Of a stretch of DNA of 64,000 nt, positions 32,322 through 44,408 are shown piece after piece; within the stretch, counting starts at the first letter, position 1; every line of letters begins with the position of its first letter. Made by a program: the position numbers and the translations under genes. Below the pieces are notes generated by a model, which had not been told where the DNA came from, ran no database searches, and saw only the letters and a program-made list of their open reading frames with translations. The DNA comes from Armatimonadota bacterium (GTDB taxonomy: Bacteria > Armatimonadota > Fimbriimonadia > Fimbriimonadales > Fimbriimonadaceae): positions 838,324 to 902,323 of the forward strand of contig JAFDWU010000001.1 of NCBI GenBank assembly GCA_018268315.1, read 5' to 3'.

Positions 32322-33227
32322 TTATTCGCTTTGTGCGGCGCGCCGGAGCCGATCGTGGATAGCTTCCCATTCGACTCCATCAGGAGGAAGCTCCACAAAC
32401 GCCAACGGCAAGTCCATTTTGTCCAATTCAATGAGTGCGCTGTAAAGACGTTTGGCATAGGCCTCTGGATTGCGCTGCATTTCCAGTTGGTGTAGATTGC
32501 GCGGTTTGCCGAAAACAAGCCCCGGCTCTTCTGGAGTGACGTTCGGTTTTAGGATGAGTTTTGTGCGGGGGGCATAATGGCGCGGATGGGTTCCTGGCGA
32601 TCTTGCAAGATCCTCCGGTTCACCGACCTTCACGCCAAGAACGGCTTCAATCTGCGCTCTTGAAATCATTCCCGGCCTGAGAATGGCTGGCTGTTCGCCG
32701 GTGAGGTCCACCACCGTGCTTTCAATGCCCACTTGGCACGGCCCCCCATCGACGACCCCACAGGCTTTGGACCGGATGGCTCCATCAAGGTCTTCCACGG
32801 TGGTGGGGGAGACCGACATAAAGCGGTTCGCGCTGGGAGCGGCAAGCGGAAAGTCCAGCATCTCCAATAAGGCGAGCGCAATAGGGTGGTTCGGCGCGCG
32901 TAGAGCGACGGTGTCGCGCCTACCGGTGGTGATGGCGGGCACCCCGGGGCTCTTGCGCAGCACCATCGTCAGCGGTCCCGGCCAAAACGCTTTGCGAAGC
33001 CGGTTGGCGCTCTCGGGAACCTGGGCTGCGAATTGCGATAGGTCCGCATCGGGCCGTACATGCACGATCAAGGGGTGATCCGCGGGCCTACCCTTGACCT
33101 CGAATATCTTACTAACCGCCTGCGCGTTCAGCGCGTTGGCGGCAAGGCCATACACCGTCTCCGTTGGGATAACCGCCAACTCCCCACGCCGCAGGCAATC
33201 CGCCGCCTGCTCCAGCGTATCGCTCAC
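32322..33227 (-). CDS. L-threonylcarbamoyladenylate synthase (Sua5/TsaC)
   Basis: A 301-residue enzyme that makes threonylcarbamoyl-AMP from Thr, bicarbonate and ATP for the t6A37 modification of tRNAs. The YrdC domain fills residues 1-185: RRGELAVIPTETVYGLAANA, KIFEVKGRPADHPLIVHV, FWPGPLTMVL, PLAAPSANRFMSVSPTTVED and STVVDLTGEQPAILRPGMIS. The rest is the smaller Sua5 domain (HPRHYAPRTKLILK linker), so this is the long Sua5/YwlC form. Start is GTG 33227, giving a GTGA overlap with aroE; longer readings lie in aroE. Confidence 0.92.
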   Translation of the reverse strand: MSDTLEQAADCLRRGELAVIPTETVYGLAANALNAQAVSKIFEVKGRPADHPLIVHVRPDADLSQFAAQVPESANRLRKAFWPGPLTMVLRKSPGVPAITTGRRDTVALRAPNHPIALALLEMLDFPLAAPSANRFMSVSPTTVEDLDGAIRSKACGVVDGGPCQVGIESTVVDLTGEQPAILRPGMISRAQIEAVLGVKVGEPEDLARSPGTHPRHYAPRTKLILKPNVTPEEPGLVFGKPRNLHQLEMQRNPEAYAKRLYSALIELDKMDLPLAFVELPPDGVEWEAIHDRLRRAAQSE

Positions 33228-34036
33228 AGCTTGGCCTCTAGAAGGCACGAAAGCATGGCATCGCGAGGGGCGGGAAGCCCAAGCCACCATTCAAAGGCGA
33301 GCGCGCCCTGCTCCATCAGCATCATCAGCCCATCCACGCACATCCGTGTGTGGGCGGCGGCATCATCGAGGAACTTCAACTGCATGCCATAGGCAAGATC
33401 GTAAGCCACTGCGTCCGGGTCGCAACGCCCCCACAAAACTGGAAGGCTCTCGCCAAACAGCGAGGCGGGAGTAGCGTTCACTAACATTCCCACCCCTTTC
33501 GGATCAAGCTCCACGCTAACGCTTGCCTGATCTCCTAACCGCGCGGCCAGCCGCGCGGCGTTATTTGGGTCACGGCTCCATATCCGCAAGTTGAAGCCGA
33601 TATCCACCAACGCAAGCCCAATCGAAGCGGCGCTTCCGCCGGAGCCGATGAGGAGGACGTCCTTCCTTTCGTCGATTTCCAGGTCGTGCAAGGTCTCGAT
33701 GAAGCCGGGGCCATCGGTGTTGATGCCGGTGTAATCGTCCAGCCGAATGCAATTCGCCGCCCCGCAGGCAAGGGCGAAGTCTTCGACGTTATCAAGCAGC
33801 GGCATCACCGCTTCCTTCAGCGGCACCGTCAGATTCACGCCCTCATAGCCCTTGTCGCGCAGGAAATCCAGCGCCGGCGCCAGTTCTTCCGGCTCAACCT
33901 CTAGCGCCACATAGCGGTACTCCAAACCCAAGACTTGGAAGGCGGCCCCATGCATCATGGGCGAGAGGGAGTGCGCGATGGGCTTGCCGAGGACGGCAAA
34001 GTCCGCCTGAGGGGCGTCCTGCCAGCGGGTGGTCAT
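33224..34036 (-). CDS. aroE: Shikimate dehydrogenase
   Basis: A 270-residue NADPH-dependent enzyme reducing 3-dehydroshikimate in aromatic amino acid synthesis. Seen: FAVLGKPIAHSLSPMMHGAAF (shikimate serines), GVNLTVPLKEAVMPLLD with the catalytic Lys, GAANCIRLDDYTGINTDGPGF with the catalytic Asp, and the Rossmann motif VLLIGSGGSAASIGLAL. The pattern GAANC instead of the common GAVNT is a mild variation. The ATG at 34036 overlaps the previous stop as TGATG. Longer frame to 34081 belongs to the upstream gene. Confidence 0.93.
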   Translation of the reverse strand: MTTRWQDAPQADFAVLGKPIAHSLSPMMHGAAFQVLGLEYRYVALEVEPEELAPALDFLRDKGYEGVNLTVPLKEAVMPLLDNVEDFALACGAANCIRLDDYTGINTDGPGFIETLHDLEIDERKDVLLIGSGGSAASIGLALVDIGFNLRIWSRDPNNAARLAARLGDQASVSVELDPKGVGMLVNATPASLFGESLPVLWGRCDPDAVAYDLAYGMQLKFLDDAAAHTRMCVDGLMMLMEQGALAFEWWLGLPAPRDAMLSCLLEAKL

Positions 34037-35097
34037 CAGGTCTTTTTGAATGCCCACAGCTTTTGTCCGCCAAAATTCCACACTGCCACCACCCCAGTGG
34101 CGACGACTTTAGCAATCGTATAGCTCAGCTTCGCGTGGCCTGGGATGAGGTGGCTCAGCACGTTGGTGATCAGCCAGTTGAAGAAGAGGCCCGCAAGTGA
34201 GATGATGACGAAGCGCTTGAATTGGCCCCGGTGGTCCTCGCCATCGGCGACCTCGAACGTCCACCTTCGGTTCCAGAAGTAGCTGTTTAGGATCGCGATG
34301 CTGCTGGCGACCGCTGAGAAGACGGGAAGCGAGGCATCGGCGGTCGATTTGGCGTATGCAAACAGGTTCGGAAAGCTGGTTTGCAGGAACGAGCCCATCG
34401 AGTTTGCGAACTGCTCGTGATAGCCAAACCGCAGTATCCATGTGATGCCGAAGTCGATTAGGAAGGAGAGGCCGCCCACCACCGCGAAGCGCATGAACTG
34501 CCTGCCGGTGGAATCGTTGGGTTTTGCGCTCTCTTCTTCGCCGCCGATATCATCCAGAGCTCGCAGAGCCGGATAAAGGAAGCGAAGTATCAGTTTCTCC
34601 AAAATGCGATTCGCCCGCGTCCCGATAAATTCGCGATCGGAAATCTTGTGGCACCAGATGCCCTCAATACCCGCGCGATTCGCGCCGAGGATGTCGGTCA
34701 GGAGCTGGTCGCCAACCATCACCGCATTCGCAGGCTGGATTCCAAACTTCTCACACGCAAGCTCGTACATGCGCGGACTTGGCTTAAAGCGATCGCGGAT
34801 CGTGGGGATGCCGAGCTTTTCGCTGATGCGGCCGAGCCGCTCCGGATGGCGCGTATTGCTTAAAATGCACAACTTGAAGCCCATCTTCTTGGCTTCTTCC
34901 AGCCAGTGCAGCACTTCGTCTTCGAAATTCTCGCGCTTCCATTCGACTAGCGTGTTGTCCACATCCAGCAGGATCAGACGCTTGCCGTCGTCCCACAATT
35001 TTTGCAGCGGCACCGCTTGCAATCGGTGATAAGCCGACACCGGGCAAAACGGGCGCAGGACGCCTGTTTTGTGCAATTGGAAGTGGCCGGTTCTCAT
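34036..35097 (-). CDS. Fusion: YqeG-type HAD phosphatase plus GtrA membrane domain
   Basis: A 353-residue protein of two parts. Residues 20-185 match the YqeG/HAD IIIA phosphatase group: RLILLDVDNTLVEWKRENFE with nucleophile Asp and DxD, KLCILSNTRHPERL, and KPSPRMYELACEKFGI, then VMVGDQLLTDILGANRAGI. Residues 200-350 form a GtrA-like domain with four membrane segments: FMRFAVVGGLSFLIDFGITW, a second at FSAVASSIAILNSYFWNRRW with the family's N-x-x-W-T-F pattern, and two more. GtrA proteins help move undecaprenyl-linked sugars. The two are normally separate genes; YqeG relatives include phosphatidylglycerophosphate phosphatases. So a lipid-phosphate or lipid-linked sugar role is a fair guess. 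It overlaps mltG and aroE. Confidence 0.85.
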   Translation of the reverse strand: MRTGHFQLHKTGVLRPFCPVSAYHRLQAVPLQKLWDDGKRLILLDVDNTLVEWKRENFEDEVLHWLEEAKKMGFKLCILSNTRHPERLGRISEKLGIPTIRDRFKPSPRMYELACEKFGIQPANAVMVGDQLLTDILGANRAGIEGIWCHKISDREFIGTRANRILEKLILRFLYPALRALDDIGGEEESAKPNDSTGRQFMRFAVVGGLSFLIDFGITWILRFGYHEQFANSMGSFLQTSFPNLFAYAKSTADASLPVFSAVASSIAILNSYFWNRRWTFEVADGEDHRGQFKRFVIISLAGLFFNWLITNVLSHLIPGHAKLSYTIAKVVATGVVAVWNFGGQKLWAFKKT

Positions 35098-36128
35098 GGG
35101 TTTTGTTTCTGCGCCATCAGTTTTCGACGTAAAGCGACGTTCTTCAGGTGCTGCTGATAGTCCGATGTGAATACCTGATGTCCGTCCGGCATCGCCACGT
35201 AGTACAGATAATCGCCCTCCGCGGGCTTAAGAGCAGCCTGAATGCTGCGCAGTCCCGGCGAGCAGATGGGACCGGGCGGCAGACCGGTGTGCAAGTAGGT
35301 GTTGAATGGCGATTTCACGCTGTGATACTCCGATTGCTTTAGCGGACGCCATTCTTGGAGCGCGTAGTTAACCGTTGCATCGATCTGAAGCGGCATGCCT
35401 TTGGCAATGCGGTTGTAGATCACCCGTGCCACCTTCGGTCGCTCGCTATCGCGCATCGTCTCAAGTTCCACCATTGAAGCAACGATCACCGCCTGCCGCA
35501 AATTCCCAGGCTTGCCCAAAGGGAGCCAGACCTTCTTGTTAAAGGCGGCGAGCTGCTTGGCAATCACCTCCTGTGGTGCGGATTTCGGCGCAAAGTTGTA
35601 CCGATCCGGATAAAGATAACCTTCCAGGGAGCCGGATGGCAATTTGAATTCCACAAACGGCTGATAGGTTTCCGTGTCTTGGGTAGCGGCGATGAAATCT
35701 TCGGCGCTTACCACCTCCTGCGCCTGTAGCATCTTTGCCTTGCGGGCAATCCAGAAGTTCTCGGGAAGGTAAAGACTCACGATGATGGGGTGGCGGCACG
35801 CAATTGCGATCTCTGCCGCAGACATGCCGGGATGAAACTGGTAGGTTCCAGGCGTCATCCGGTTGATTCGCCGCGCCAGAAGGTAGAGCTTTAACGCGAA
35901 GGCGCTTCTGGCGACTCCCTTCTCCTCAAGCTGATCCGCCACGGTTGCGCTTGTTTGGTTATCGCCAACTTTAAGATAGAAAGGCTCTCCTTTAGCGGTG
36001 CGCGAAAGAGCAGAGCCGAAGAAGACCGTGATGACGGCAAGCGCCACCACAAGGGCCAACAACATCCGCCGGAGACGCTTAATGAGCCGCAAAATACCGC
36101 TCCAGTATCTTGGCCGCCGCCTCGCCAT
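35094..36128 (-). CDS. mltG: Endolytic murein transglycosylase MltG (YceG)
   Basis: A 344-residue inner membrane enzyme that cuts nascent glycan strands and sets their length. It has a basic cytoplasmic start, one membrane segment (MLLALVVALAVITVFFGSAL), a LysM-like region (FYLKVGDNQTSATVADQLEE), and the YceG domain with the catalytic Glu in VIVASMVELETMRDSERPKV and LQIDATVNYAL, YNTYLHTGLPPGPICSPG equivalents. The start at 36128 overlaps ruvX by 50 bases but gives the expected basic n-region; ATG 36065 is the alternative. Its partner ruvX is adjacent, as in many genomes. Confidence 0.92.
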   Translation of the reverse strand: MARRRPRYWSGILRLIKRLRRMLLALVVALAVITVFFGSALSRTAKGEPFYLKVGDNQTSATVADQLEEKGVARSAFALKLYLLARRINRMTPGTYQFHPGMSAAEIAIACRHPIIVSLYLPENFWIARKAKMLQAQEVVSAEDFIAATQDTETYQPFVEFKLPSGSLEGYLYPDRYNFAPKSAPQEVIAKQLAAFNKKVWLPLGKPGNLRQAVIVASMVELETMRDSERPKVARVIYNRIAKGMPLQIDATVNYALQEWRPLKQSEYHSVKSPFNTYLHTGLPPGPICSPGLRSIQAALKPAEGDYLYYVAMPDGHQVFTSDYQQHLKNVALRRKLMAQKQNP

Positions 36129-36486
36129 CGCGCGCCTTGCGCTTATCGCTGCCCTTCAGGTCCAACCGGTTCAGTTGTTGCTCCGCCTCCACGCTGGTAA
36201 ACGCCTCATCTTGCAGTTCCACGGTTACTCCTTTCTCCCGAATGAGGTCCGCCAGCTTTTCGCAAACCCCGCTCAGGCGGGATGGGGAGCCGTCTGGCTG
36301 CAAGGGATGACCAAGCACAACCAAGTCAACTCCTTCATCGCGGGCTTTTGCGGCAATCGTCTCGGCGTCAAGCGATAGCTTGCCAAGCGCCTTTAAGGCG
36401 GGGCGAGGGGTCACGATGCCAAATTCCTTCTCGCCAACCGCGATCCCGATACGAGTCGTGCCAAGGTCCACGCCAAGCGCTCTCAA
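36079..36486 (-). CDS. ruvX: RuvX / YqgF RNase H-like nuclease
   Basis: A 135-residue RNase H-fold protein, the putative Holliday junction resolvase that also matures the 16S rRNA 3' end in some bacteria. Seen: MRALGVDLGTTRIGIAVGEK with the first catalytic Asp, VDLVVLGHPLQPDGSPS, and VELQDEAFTSVEAEQQL with catalytic Glu, ending in DGEAAAKILERYF with the last Asp. Full length. GTG/ATG overlap of four bases with hisN; its end runs inside the mltG reading frame. Confidence 0.94.
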   Translation of the reverse strand: MRALGVDLGTTRIGIAVGEKEFGIVTPRPALKALGKLSLDAETIAAKARDEGVDLVVLGHPLQPDGSPSRLSGVCEKLADLIREKGVTVELQDEAFTSVEAEQQLNRLDLKGSDKRKARDGEAAAKILERYFAAH

Positions 36487-40958: not shown

Positions 40959-43900
40959 TTAAGTTTGACTGATTCGTACCGAGGCCTTTCGGTCCAGCTT
41001 GCCCCAGCCTTGGCGAACGCCCGCCAGCGCCATCAGCAGCGAGCGATAGATCACGGCGTACATAAGCTGGCGATAGAAGAAACGCTGCACCAGCAACGTC
41101 CACAATCCGCCACTCTTCAGGCGGTCCATCTTGAATGCGATCCAAGCGGTTAGATACTCGATGACGAAAAAGAGCCCGTACAGCTCCAGCACTTGGCGCA
41201 GATTGCTCGTGGCGGTTGCGTAGTTGTCGTACTCGCTGGGATGGTAGTGATGGGTGTACCAAGTGGAGGCAAAGCCCGCCACGCTTACGATCATCTGAAG
41301 GTCGATCAGCGGCGCAATCGCTTGGAACCCAATCTGGAACACCCAAAGGGCAGGTAATGCCAGCCGTCCAAAGTATCCGTGCTTCCCAACCGACCGTCGG
41401 TGCTTCCACAGGCATTGCAGGGTTCCATAAGCCCAGCGGAATCGCTGCTTGAAGAATGTCTTTACGGTATCAGGGGCTTCCGTGTGGGCCTTGGCGTCCG
41501 GCTCAGTTTCAAGGCGATACCCAGCTTCGCGTAATCGCCAAGTGAGGTCCATGTCTTCCGCTAGCGTATCGCTGGAGTAACCACCCACCGCCAGCACGGC
41601 TTCCCTGCGCCATGCCCCAATCGCGCCCGGCACGACTGTGATCGCATTCAAGAGCGCATAGGCTCGCCGGTCAAGGTTCTGGCTCGCGGTGTACTCAATG
41701 TGCTGCCACAAAGTGAGCAAGTTATGCACATTGCCGACCAGCACGTTTCCCGCCACCGAAGCAATCTGGGGGTCATTAAAGTGCGAAGCCATCAAGCCAA
41801 CGGCATCCGGGTTTAGCTGGGTGTCCGCGTCGATGCAGACCACCACATCCGCATCCGTCTCCTTGAGAGCGCGATTTAGCGCCGCTGCCTTGCCGGCATT
41901 CTCCTGATGGATAACCAGCACCCGCGGTTCTGCGGCAAACGCCTCACTCAGCACGCGAAGGGTCTCATCCTTGCTGCCATCGTCTACCACGACAACTTGG
42001 TGAACGGGAAATGTGGAAGCCAAGATGGACTGCACCGTGGCAACGATCACCTTCTCTTCGTTATAGGCGGCAATCAGGGCCGAAACCTTGCCTTCAAATG
42101 GCTCACGAACCGTGTCTTTGCGACGCCACTCATGGAGTGCCGCCAACGGCACAATGAGACCGATGCGAGCGATACCAAGTCCGATTGCGAACACAAACAA
42201 CACCGCCAGGAGAGCATCCGCATTGAACACAAAATCGAACACCAAACGGTCGAGCCCTACGAGCAACACATCCTTGCGCGAGAGCAAGGGCATCACCCTG
42301 TCGCGATCCACCCCGACAAGTTCGGAAACCCCGACGAACCGATAGCCTTGTGCTCGCAGCTGGGGGACAATGATGTCCAAGACCTGTAGCGTTCGCGAAC
42401 GATCCTCGCCACCGCCATCGTGTAGCAGGATGACGTTCCCCTCTCCCCTTGCAACCTCCTGCATCACGATGCGCGCCATCAGCTCTGGGCTGCGCTCGTG
42501 GACTCTGCCTGCATCATCTTGATACTCCAGCAGCCAGTCCTGAGGATCAATGAGTTCACCAATGGTTAGGTAGCCAAGGCGAGCGGCAATCCGCACCGGC
42601 TCGACTTCCATAGGGCTTGTTGGCTCGGCATCGGCGTTGTAGGGCGGCCGGAAGAGGATCGTGCTGCGGCCAAGAATCGCTTGGATCGCTCGCTGAGACG
42701 TGTTAATTTCAAGTTCAGCGCGATCCGGCGAAATGAGCCCAAGGTTTGGATGGGAAAATGTGTGGCTTCCCACTTCATGGCCCTCCGCAACCATCCGTCT
42801 TACAAGTTCCGGCGACTGCTCGGCGTTCTTGCCAATGACGAAGAACGTGGCGGGGACGTCCAACTCCTTCAGTTTGTCCAGAATCGGTGCGGTGTAGGTT
42901 CCATCGGGGCCATCGTCGAAGGTCAGCGCGACGGTCTTGGGTTTGTAACCTGACCTCTTTATGACGATTGGCGAAGGAAAGACTGAGTACGACTCATCCA
43001 CTATCTCGCCATCGGTATCCACCTCGAGCGACCGCGTACCAGGCGCGGGATTCTGGGCGACTTCCATCACCTCGCCCTTGCCAGAAAAGTCGACTTCGTA
43101 AGGATAAGTCACTCGCTGCAAGACCGTCGCCGAGGGAATCTTGCCCAGTTTGTTGCGGTCATAGAACAGCCACATTGAGGGATCTTCCGAGCCCAATGCC
43201 CAAAGCGCGGTACCGCGAATGCCCGACGCCCAGCCAAGCCGCCACTGGTTGTAGGCAGAAGCCGCATCGGTCATCCAGACCTGATGGTTCACGCCCTGAT
43301 CGTCGTCGTACTCGAAATGAGGGTTGAGGGTCTCGGCGTCAAAGTCGATGACATCCTGAGGCGGCTCGCTATCGCGATATCCCTTTGCCGCGGCAATCGC
43401 TTCCTGGTAGGTGAGAGATTCGGCAGTTTTGGCGCCCTTCGCCCAATCGTAGCTGTAGTTGGCGATGCCCATCACCAGCTTGTGTTCAGGTATCTGCTGC
43501 TTCGCATCTTCCAGGTTTTGCTCAACCCAATCAATCGAGGCGATGGGACCCGGTTCATCCTCTTGGGCATGCTGGTCGTACAGCATCAGAGTCACCCAGT
43601 TGCACGCCTCCGCGATAGCTTTAAATGGCAGGGGGCTATCGGTTAGTTCCAGGGCCGCCGTCAGTCCAAGGTTCGAGCCGGTAAATTCCTTTTGAATCAC
43701 GCCAAGAAAGCTAGGAAGCACGGCGGCATCCTCTTTGTGGAGGTTCTCAAAGTCAATTTGAATTCCCTGGTAACGGTTCCTCAACAGCCATGTTCGCAGG
43801 TCCGACGCAATCTTTTTTTGAAGCTCCGGGTTTGACAGCAACTTGTGCGCCCGCTCAGGGTCAAACGCGCCCATCGACGCGTTATTGAGGATTGGCACGA

Positions 43901-44408
43901 TCCGAATCCCGTTCGCCCTAGCGATTTGGATTACTTCCACGTTATGGGGCGTCACCTCAGGGTCAAAGTCGCTCTGATCCAGTTCTCTTCCATCTGGCGA
44001 TAGGTGCAGCCACTCCGGGAGCAAATCGGTGATCTTGGAAGCGTTGGCCTCCAGCGAATGGAGCCCGGTTTCCTGCCAGGGCGCGTAATAAGCGGCAACA
44101 ATGGGTTCCCCTCGAGCACGAAGTGCAGTAGGGGGCTTCTCAGCGGCAATACGCTCCGCAAGCTGCGCTTTGGATTTTGCCAGCAGCACCTGCGCCTTTT
44201 CACTGAGCTTGCTTTGGGTGGTGGGAATAAAGCTGCGCCGCTTCGCTTCGGCATTTACACCCGGCAGCTGGGGAAGGAGCGGGGGAATGAGCACGCTTAC
44301 GGTGAACCCCGCGCCTAGTACCGCCGAGACGGCGATTGCCGCAAGAACACCCCTTGATAGGAGCTTCTGACGACGCCCTTTGGGGTCAAAGAAGATGGGT
44401 TTGCTCAC
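40959..44408 (-). CDS. GH18-like / polysaccharide deacetylase / family 2 glycosyltransferase fusion
   Basis: A 1149-residue membrane protein with three enzyme modules. Residues 20-45: membrane anchor. Residues 100-425: GH18-type barrel, with catalytic-site RYQGIQIDFEN (D219, E221) and AYYAPWQE. Residues 490-700: NodB deacetylase with VALTFDDGPDG (D498, D499), SHTFSHP (H549, H553), FRPPYNAD and VILLHDGGGED. Residues 712-755: membrane segments. Residues 775-1010: GT2 with SALIAAYNEE, VVVDDGSKDE, CIDADTQLN, EDMDLTWRLREAGY and QRFRWAYGTLQ, followed by more membrane segments. This is PgaB- and PgaC-like chemistry in one chain, so it probably makes and trims a beta-1,4/1,6 N-acetylglucosamine-type polymer. 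GTG start, with TAATTA six bases upstream. Confidence 0.9.
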   Translation of the reverse strand: MSKPIFFDPKGRRQKLLSRGVLAAIAVSAVLGAGFTVSVLIPPLLPQLPGVNAEAKRRSFIPTTQSKLSEKAQVLLAKSKAQLAERIAAEKPPTALRARGEPIVAAYYAPWQETGLHSLEANASKITDLLPEWLHLSPDGRELDQSDFDPEVTPHNVEVIQIARANGIRIVPILNNASMGAFDPERAHKLLSNPELQKKIASDLRTWLLRNRYQGIQIDFENLHKEDAAVLPSFLGVIQKEFTGSNLGLTAALELTDSPLPFKAIAEACNWVTLMLYDQHAQEDEPGPIASIDWVEQNLEDAKQQIPEHKLVMGIANYSYDWAKGAKTAESLTYQEAIAAAKGYRDSEPPQDVIDFDAETLNPHFEYDDDQGVNHQVWMTDAASAYNQWRLGWASGIRGTALWALGSEDPSMWLFYDRNKLGKIPSATVLQRVTYPYEVDFSGKGEVMEVAQNPAPGTRSLEVDTDGEIVDESYSVFPSPIVIKRSGYKPKTVALTFDDGPDGTYTAPILDKLKELDVPATFFVIGKNAEQSPELVRRMVAEGHEVGSHTFSHPNLGLISPDRAELEINTSQRAIQAILGRSTILFRPPYNADAEPTSPMEVEPVRIAARLGYLTIGELIDPQDWLLEYQDDAGRVHERSPELMARIVMQEVARGEGNVILLHDGGGEDRSRTLQVLDIIVPQLRAQGYRFVGVSELVGVDRDRVMPLLSRKDVLLVGLDRLVFDFVFNADALLAVLFVFAIGLGIARIGLIVPLAALHEWRRKDTVREPFEGKVSALIAAYNEEKVIVATVQSILASTFPVHQVVVVDDGSKDETLRVLSEAFAAEPRVLVIHQENAGKAAALNRALKETDADVVVCIDADTQLNPDAVGLMASHFNDPQIASVAGNVLVGNVHNLLTLWQHIEYTASQNLDRRAYALLNAITVVPGAIGAWRREAVLAVGGYSSDTLAEDMDLTWRLREAGYRLETEPDAKAHTEAPDTVKTFFKQRFRWAYGTLQCLWKHRRSVGKHGYFGRLALPALWVFQIGFQAIAPLIDLQMIVSVAGFASTWYTHHYHPSEYDNYATATSNLRQVLELYGLFFVIEYLTAWIAFKMDRLKSGGLWTLLVQRFFYRQLMYAVIYRSLLMALAGVRQGWGKLDRKASVRISQT

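Follow-up and report, generated by a model that had tools for sequence, protein, structure and literature searches.

A genuine, family-wide gene fusion, probably derived from the merger of two neighbouring genes, joins a YqeG-type HAD phosphatase to a GtrA membrane domain in the Armatimonadota family Fimbriimonadaceae (hereafter f1), whose little-studied members live in soil and water. We investigated the fusion starting from the copy encoded on the minus strand at positions 34036-35097 of the window, by which we mean the whole stretch of 64,000 nucleotides of an f1 contig (JAFDWU010000001.1, assembly GCA_018268315.1) that was analysed. The explanation that we rank first, tentatively and at somewhat short of an even chance, is that the fusion arose from neighbouring genes, that its GtrA half works in a polyprenyl-phosphate-pentofuranose pathway and that fusion keeps the YqeG phosphatase on the same face of the membrane.

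The fusion gene, delimited from its ORF, profile matches, the DNA of relatives and alignment, is a single open frame with an ATG start and no internal stops, coding for a 353 aa protein (P0001). The domain identities read from the sequence in the earlier note were borne out by profile searches, the YqeG-type HAD phosphatase half (residues 1-185, positions 34543-35097) matching TIGR01668 over residues 25-176 with 115.7 bits against a cut-off of 89.1, and the GtrA/DPMS transmembrane half (residues 197-353, positions 34036-34509) matching PF04138, GtrA_DPMS_TM, with 76 bits against a cut-off of 26.1 (E 3.6e-21). A chance ORF is rejected by these domain E-values. The YqeG half also exceeds the cut-off of PF09419, the mitochondrial PGP phosphatase family (36 bits, cut-off 20.4), and no match to the GtrA half of the window was found among NCBIfam models. 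An AlphaFold2 model of the fusion (input 32 sequences; mean pLDDT 92.2, pTM 0.74) predicts a HAD-like alpha/beta domain at residues 1-180, a short low-confidence joint and four long helices at residues 196-224, 257-280, 289-317 and 322-349, whose insertion into the membrane is likewise predicted. The joint corresponds to the linker (residues 186-196, positions 34510-34542, minus strand), where model confidence is lowest (pLDDT 54 in the block 181-190).

Residues characteristic of both domains are retained throughout the fused proteins. In an alignment taking in 33 of the 49 fused ORFs whose DNA was read, D45, D47, T49, S80, K105, D130 and D135 of the HAD half, which we take to be HAD motifs I-IV, are invariant (33/33), and the catalytic residues are also found in 7 aligned standalone YqeG proteins (alignment A2, excluding L126 and L142 with stop codons in the chosen stretch and, as a precaution, L149). 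F204, G208, D215, G235, N276, T280, N341, F342 and F350 of the GtrA half are equally invariant (33/33), core positions of this half being mostly common to the standalone GtrA proteins of sister families. The loop between GtrA helices 1 and 2 (fusion residues ~225-255) is long throughout the order, irrespective of whether the protein is fused or standalone, with G235 an invariant glycine inside this loop of the fused proteins.

Distribution of the fusion was investigated in a phylum set of 291 Armatimonadota genomes, of which 113 belong to the order Fimbriimonadales and 85 to f1, the remaining families of interest, f2, f3, f4 and f5, being sister families of f1. Within f1 the two genes are fused in 75 of 85 genomes, representing 29 of 32 genus codes, separate in 5, present as YqeG only in 2 (G133 and G134, both reduced genomes) and without a full match in 3 (G087, G140 and G147, all incomplete). 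A single match spans both halves in 73 of the 75 fusions; of the other two, G122 has a longer linker, and in G099 the gene is broken between two contigs, one of which carries sequence from both sides of the junction. Inspection of the DNA of 49 fused ORFs and of the 5 unfused gene pairs bore out these counts, linkers in the 49 fused ORFs being mostly 10-30 residues long. Two full-length fused copies were observed on different contigs in one genome (G142). Outside f1, no match spanning both halves was detected in the phylum set among the matches listed (at least ~113 bits), and the GtrA proteins of the sister families are single-domain. The statement in the earlier note that the two halves are normally separate genes is supported. 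A pattern scan of named genomes gave a similar picture, 27 of the best 80 of 583 relatives reaching into GtrA; these loci are assigned to Fimbriimonas, Fimbriimonadaceae/-ales/-ia, Armatimonadetes, 'bacterium' and, in one case, Chthonomonadaceae, the latter apparently an f1 contig. The other 53 of the best 80, many from Alicyclobacillus, Clostridia and other Armatimonadetes, end at or before residue 200.

Separate yqeG and gtrA genes in different frames occur in G092, G139, G141, G148 and G149. In all five, the stop and start codons of the two genes overlap by four bases in an NTGA arrangement (ATGA in L032 and L037, TTGA in L033 and L034, GTGA in L035), and thus the unfused f1 pairs are still encoded in tandem. 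Two 1.5-Mb f1 genomes (L067, L068) keep ruvX-mltG-yqeG with the GtrA half lost; UbiA and DprE1 matches were not detected genome-wide in either, nor was aroE beside yqeG within the stretch read.

Both flanks of the fusion gene, assigned from the ORF list and profile matches, overlap it. mltG, directly upstream (35094-36128, minus strand), shares 4 bases with the fusion gene and the likely ATG of aroE, directly downstream (33224-34036, minus strand), overlaps its stop codon, while ruvX (36079-36486, minus strand; profile match and tblastn) belongs with them to an ancestral ruvX-mltG-yqeG-aroE cluster. In tblastn searches with the window proteins, four loci outside the order (L046-L049) have mltG-yqeG-aroE without gtrA between, preceded by ruvX in three of the four. 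The position that the fusion occupies, with mltG on one side and aroE on the other, is ancestrally that of yqeG across the phylum. The placement reported in the earlier note is therefore correct as gene order, but a wall function read from the mltG/aroE setting is rejected, since the same order exists without GtrA elsewhere in the phylum. A promoter and terminator scan returned fewer sites than in shuffled sequence. Elsewhere in the window, a single 1149-aa chain (40959-44408, minus strand) carries a GT2 domain together with glycosyl hydrolase 18 and polysaccharide deacetylase domains.

Gene order in f2, mltG-yqeG-ubiA-gtrA-aroE, provides the apparent step before fusion, with a UbiA-type protein encoded between yqeG and gtrA. 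The simplest history that we can infer is that a ubiA-gtrA pair was inserted downstream of yqeG, ahead of aroE, that ubiA subsequently left and that gtrA then fused to yqeG. In a YqeG tree constructed by a quick method, with many weak forks, f1 forms one clade (SH-aLRT 92) in which the unfused L037 nests inside the fused group, so that L037 looks like a fission of an earlier fusion. At the base of the family, one early fusion followed by several fissions and more than one fusion both remain compatible with the tree. UbiA and GtrA trees each keep f1 as one clade, which would be compatible with vertical descent (L023, cut at a contig end, was omitted from the GtrA tree and L056, with a stop inside the matched stretch, from the UbiA tree).

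The older partner of gtrA is a DPPR synthase-like UbiA protein. The UbiA-type protein of f2 has decaprenyl-phosphate phosphoribosyltransferase as its best model (222 and 229 bits, cut-off 234), and of the 24 sister-family genomes with both genes, 23 have ubiA next to gtrA (15/15 in f3, 1/1 in f4, 1/1 in f5 and 6/7 in f2). yqeG adjoins ubiA in 7/7 f2 genomes; in f3, f4 and f5 the ubiA-gtrA pair sits elsewhere in the genome, unlinked to yqeG, and in f1 ubiA lies tens of kb or more from gtrA where one contig holds both. A UbiA homologue was detected in 106/113 genomes of the order. Among the 88 good genomes (≥90% complete, ≤5% contaminated), GtrA and UbiA were each detected in 85, both being present in 85 and both absent in 3 (G133, G134 and G170). 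These joint losses represent few independent events, G133 and G134 being sister reduced genomes and the family of G170 having the genes adjoining. Presence of GtrA and UbiA disagrees in 4/113 genomes, all of them incomplete (G087, G140 and G147 without GtrA, G075 without UbiA).

In the genome of the window, UbiA scores 239.6 bits against the DPPR-synthase cut-off of 234 and matches the solved M. tuberculosis enzyme 8j8j at 2.5e-36. Its gene is followed by an SDR and then by a DprE1 homologue (E 1.1e-82; 278.6 bits, below the cut-off of 500; 5.7e-47 to 4fdn), beside an exosortase/EpsI polysaccharide locus. The SDR could be DprE2, but it resembles many SDRs. DprE1 homologues (E≤1e-30) occur in 87/113 genomes of the order, none over the cut-off; they are found in f1 and f2 and, among the matches listed, in none of the f3 genomes. 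Those of f1 fall into two score classes, one of ~425-466 bits unlinked to ubiA and one mostly of ~210-300 bits, usually beside ubiA. In L052 and L053-L056, ubiA(-gtrA) adjoins exosortase EpsH/EpsI and polysaccharide export genes, which suggests that the pentofuranose decorates an exopolysaccharide or a sorted glycoprotein. In M. tuberculosis the GtrA protein Rv3789 is co-expressed with DprE1/E2 and AftA (PMC9810820) and is a proposed exporter of decaprenyl-P-arabinose (PMC11127046). Gene linkage points to a polyprenyl-phosphate-ribose/arabinose for the GtrA half, and it is from the DPPR-synthase linkage that we infer flipping of a polyprenyl-phosphate sugar by GtrA.

Under the explanation that we favour, a UbiA-type DPPR synthase would make polyprenyl-P-ribose-5-phosphate and a phosphatase would remove the 5-phosphate, a step most likely supplied by the YqeG half, which would keep an older housekeeping substrate as well. 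DprE1/DprE2-like enzymes may then convert ribose to arabinose, and the GtrA half would be the membrane component, a flippase or flippase-like scaffold, by which the lipid sugar would reach the outer leaflet. The YqeG half, a phosphatase with intact catalytic residues, is presumably cytosolic and would be held at the membrane face by the fusion; the direction of transport, the phosphatase substrate and the coupling of both steps are proposed here. The earlier note's suggestion that a phosphatase is held at the membrane and acts close to a lipid carrier is supported. In favour of this explanation, gtrA in f1 has parted from ubiA and stayed with yqeG, either fused or with a four-base overlap. Against it, YqeG is kept without GtrA and UbiA, PAP2 phosphatases occur in every genome of the order, yqeG is unlinked in f3-f5 and the DprE1 homologue is below its cut-off. 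A direct hand-over from phosphatase to flippase is doubtful, as DprE1 and DprE2 would have to act between the two in f1 and f2.

YqeG was detected in 113/113 genomes of the order at E≤0.001, 107 over the cut-off, including G133, G134 and G170, and is kept also through the rest of the phylum. Retention of YqeG where GtrA and UbiA are both absent indicates that YqeG has its own job and that its main substrate is not tied to the pentofuranose pathway. In S. sanguinis, yqeG is listed among essential-type genes, deletion giving slow-growing mutants (PMC12691585). PAP2 phosphatases, present in 113/113 genomes of the order, are rival candidates for the 5'-phosphatase step, and the mycobacterial candidate, Rv3807c, is presumably itself of the PAP2 family. 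A role of the HAD half as the missing DPPR 5'-phosphatase is nevertheless plausible, though no more than that, from gene arrangement, given the fusion, the f2 gene order and the absence of a phosphatase gene among the identified conserved neighbours of the f3-f5 ubiA-gtrA loci. PGP and polyprenyl-P-ribose-5-P are both built as lipid-phosphodiester-polyol-phosphomonoester, a likeness of layout that by analogy would count for a ribosyl-lipid substrate of the YqeG half. In the strongest form of this proposal, which we consider unlikely, the HAD-type 5'-phosphatase missing for polyprenyl-phosphate-ribose-5-phosphate would be the YqeG half, which would form with GtrA a single dephosphorylate-and-flip protein, and YqeG enzymes in general would act on lipid-linked polyol phosphates.

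Ranked directly after the favoured explanation, and also a real contender at below even probability, is an operon fusion without functional coupling, in which YqeG and GtrA would keep their own jobs and loss of the stop codon between co-translated neighbours would only equalise their expression and place YqeG at the membrane. The conservation of YqeG irrespective of GtrA and UbiA is as expected here, as are the ancestral mltG-yqeG-aroE order, the sharing of catalytic residues between fused YqeG and the seven standalone proteins, the availability of PAP2 enzymes for other steps and the four-base overlaps in the five unfused genomes, which imply that a small frame change separates the two states. 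Less easily accommodated is the persistence of the arrangement, fusion or tight overlap being kept in 80/82 f1 genomes with a full YqeG match and fusion extending over nearly all genera, with gtrA having left its older partner ubiA but not yqeG.

That GtrA is a mere membrane anchor for a Gep4-like phosphatidylglycerophosphate phosphatase is improbable, although the PF09419 match described above is in its favour and the dolichyl-phosphate mannose synthase (DPMS) structure 5mlz shows a GtrA-type membrane domain beneath a cytosolic enzyme. A yeast mutant in PGP phosphatase is complemented by the Gep4 homologue of Chlamydomonas (PMC5897459). PgpA was over the cut-off in 0/113 genomes of the order, which alone would suggest YqeG as the PGP phosphatase, but the CDP-alcohol phosphatidyltransferase family that includes PGP synthase (PF01066) was also detected in 0/113, with controls positive in 14/14, so that a source of PGP was not found; a very divergent enzyme is possible. 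A role of the YqeG half on PGP, one of the two substrates named for assay in the earlier note, is thus weakened, and nothing found points to the other, undecaprenyl pyrophosphate. In addition, the GtrA core residues are kept and losses of GtrA coincide with those of UbiA while YqeG stays, neither of which favours a simple anchor. As a separate observation, PF01066 is found in only 33/291 genomes of the phylum, although CdsA is present in 103/113 of the order, a puzzle for phospholipid head-group synthesis in Fimbriimonadales.

Still less probable is a role of the phosphatase half in regulation or recycling, in which its target would be no pathway intermediate but either a lipid carrier or a soluble phosphate, of a sugar or a nucleotide, by which GtrA is controlled. 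B. subtilis YqeG does weakly hydrolyse GMP and glucose-6-phosphate, but only at higher substrate concentration, and the same study reports that its physiological function could not be determined (PMC5080769). Gene linkage gives no hint of such a role. A frameshift or assembly error joining two genes, the earlier note's own caveat together with a stop codon between the halves in relatives, can be dismissed: the two genes are indeed separated by a stop codon in 5/85 f1 genomes, yet they overlap there in tandem, and 49 fused ORFs with both halves conserved were read from separate assemblies, single-contig genomes included.

Comparison with known systems places each half in a familiar context. The YqeG half shares its domain, catalytic residues and position near aroE with YqeG/Gep4-PGPP HAD-IIIA phosphatases (TIGR01668, PF09419), yqeG of B. 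subtilis heading an operon with yqeH and aroD (PMC5080769). These proteins are normally free and ~170-190 aa long, whereas the fusion adds a four-helix membrane domain in an order where the usual source of PGP is not detected. The GtrA half (PF04138) has links to DPPR synthase and to a DprE1 homologue that parallel those of Rv3789 with arabinan synthesis in mycobacteria (PMC9810820, PMC11127046). In contrast to the single-domain GtrA of sister families, however, GtrA in f1 forms the C-terminal part of a phosphatase and is encoded away from ubiA. Rv3789, we assume, is likewise single-domain. Three-component pentofuranose systems, consisting of a polyprenyl-P-ribose synthase with a HAD domain, a flippase and a GT-C, would perform the same chemistry; there the synthase, a membrane member of the pathway, carries the HAD phosphatase domain, as in Citrobacter ORF15, and a MATE-family protein acts as flippase (PMC11127046), whereas in f1 it is the proposed flippase that carries a HAD domain, one of the YqeG type. 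The predicted architecture of the fusion resembles that of Pyrococcus dolichyl-phosphate mannose synthase (5mlz), an enzyme acting on a polyprenyl phosphate, in which the catalytic domain is cytosolic and a GtrA-type membrane domain comes after it (Foldseek E 1.1e-5; VIA Z 14.0, 210 aligned, rmsd 11.5), but its catalytic half is a glycosyltransferase and that of the fusion a phosphatase. Searches of a limited literature collection gave no description of YqeG fused to GtrA. Joins between HAD and membrane proteins of pentofuranose pathways and soluble enzymes on GtrA-type domains are known. New here are ubiA as the older partner of gtrA, and their adjacency and co-occurrence.

YqeG is widespread and its substrate unsettled, and fusion to a pathway-specific membrane partner provides a direct pointer to its site of action. 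From the linkage described here, nearly every one of the Fimbriimonadales examined has a polyprenyl-phosphate-ribose/arabinose pathway of the mycobacterial type. Furthermore, the fusion offers, within a single natural protein, a way of deciding between transport of lipid sugars by GtrA and a role as enzyme anchor only. If the 5'-phosphatase reading is true, the fusion would reveal the role of YqeG, an orphan family across Firmicutes and Armatimonadota.
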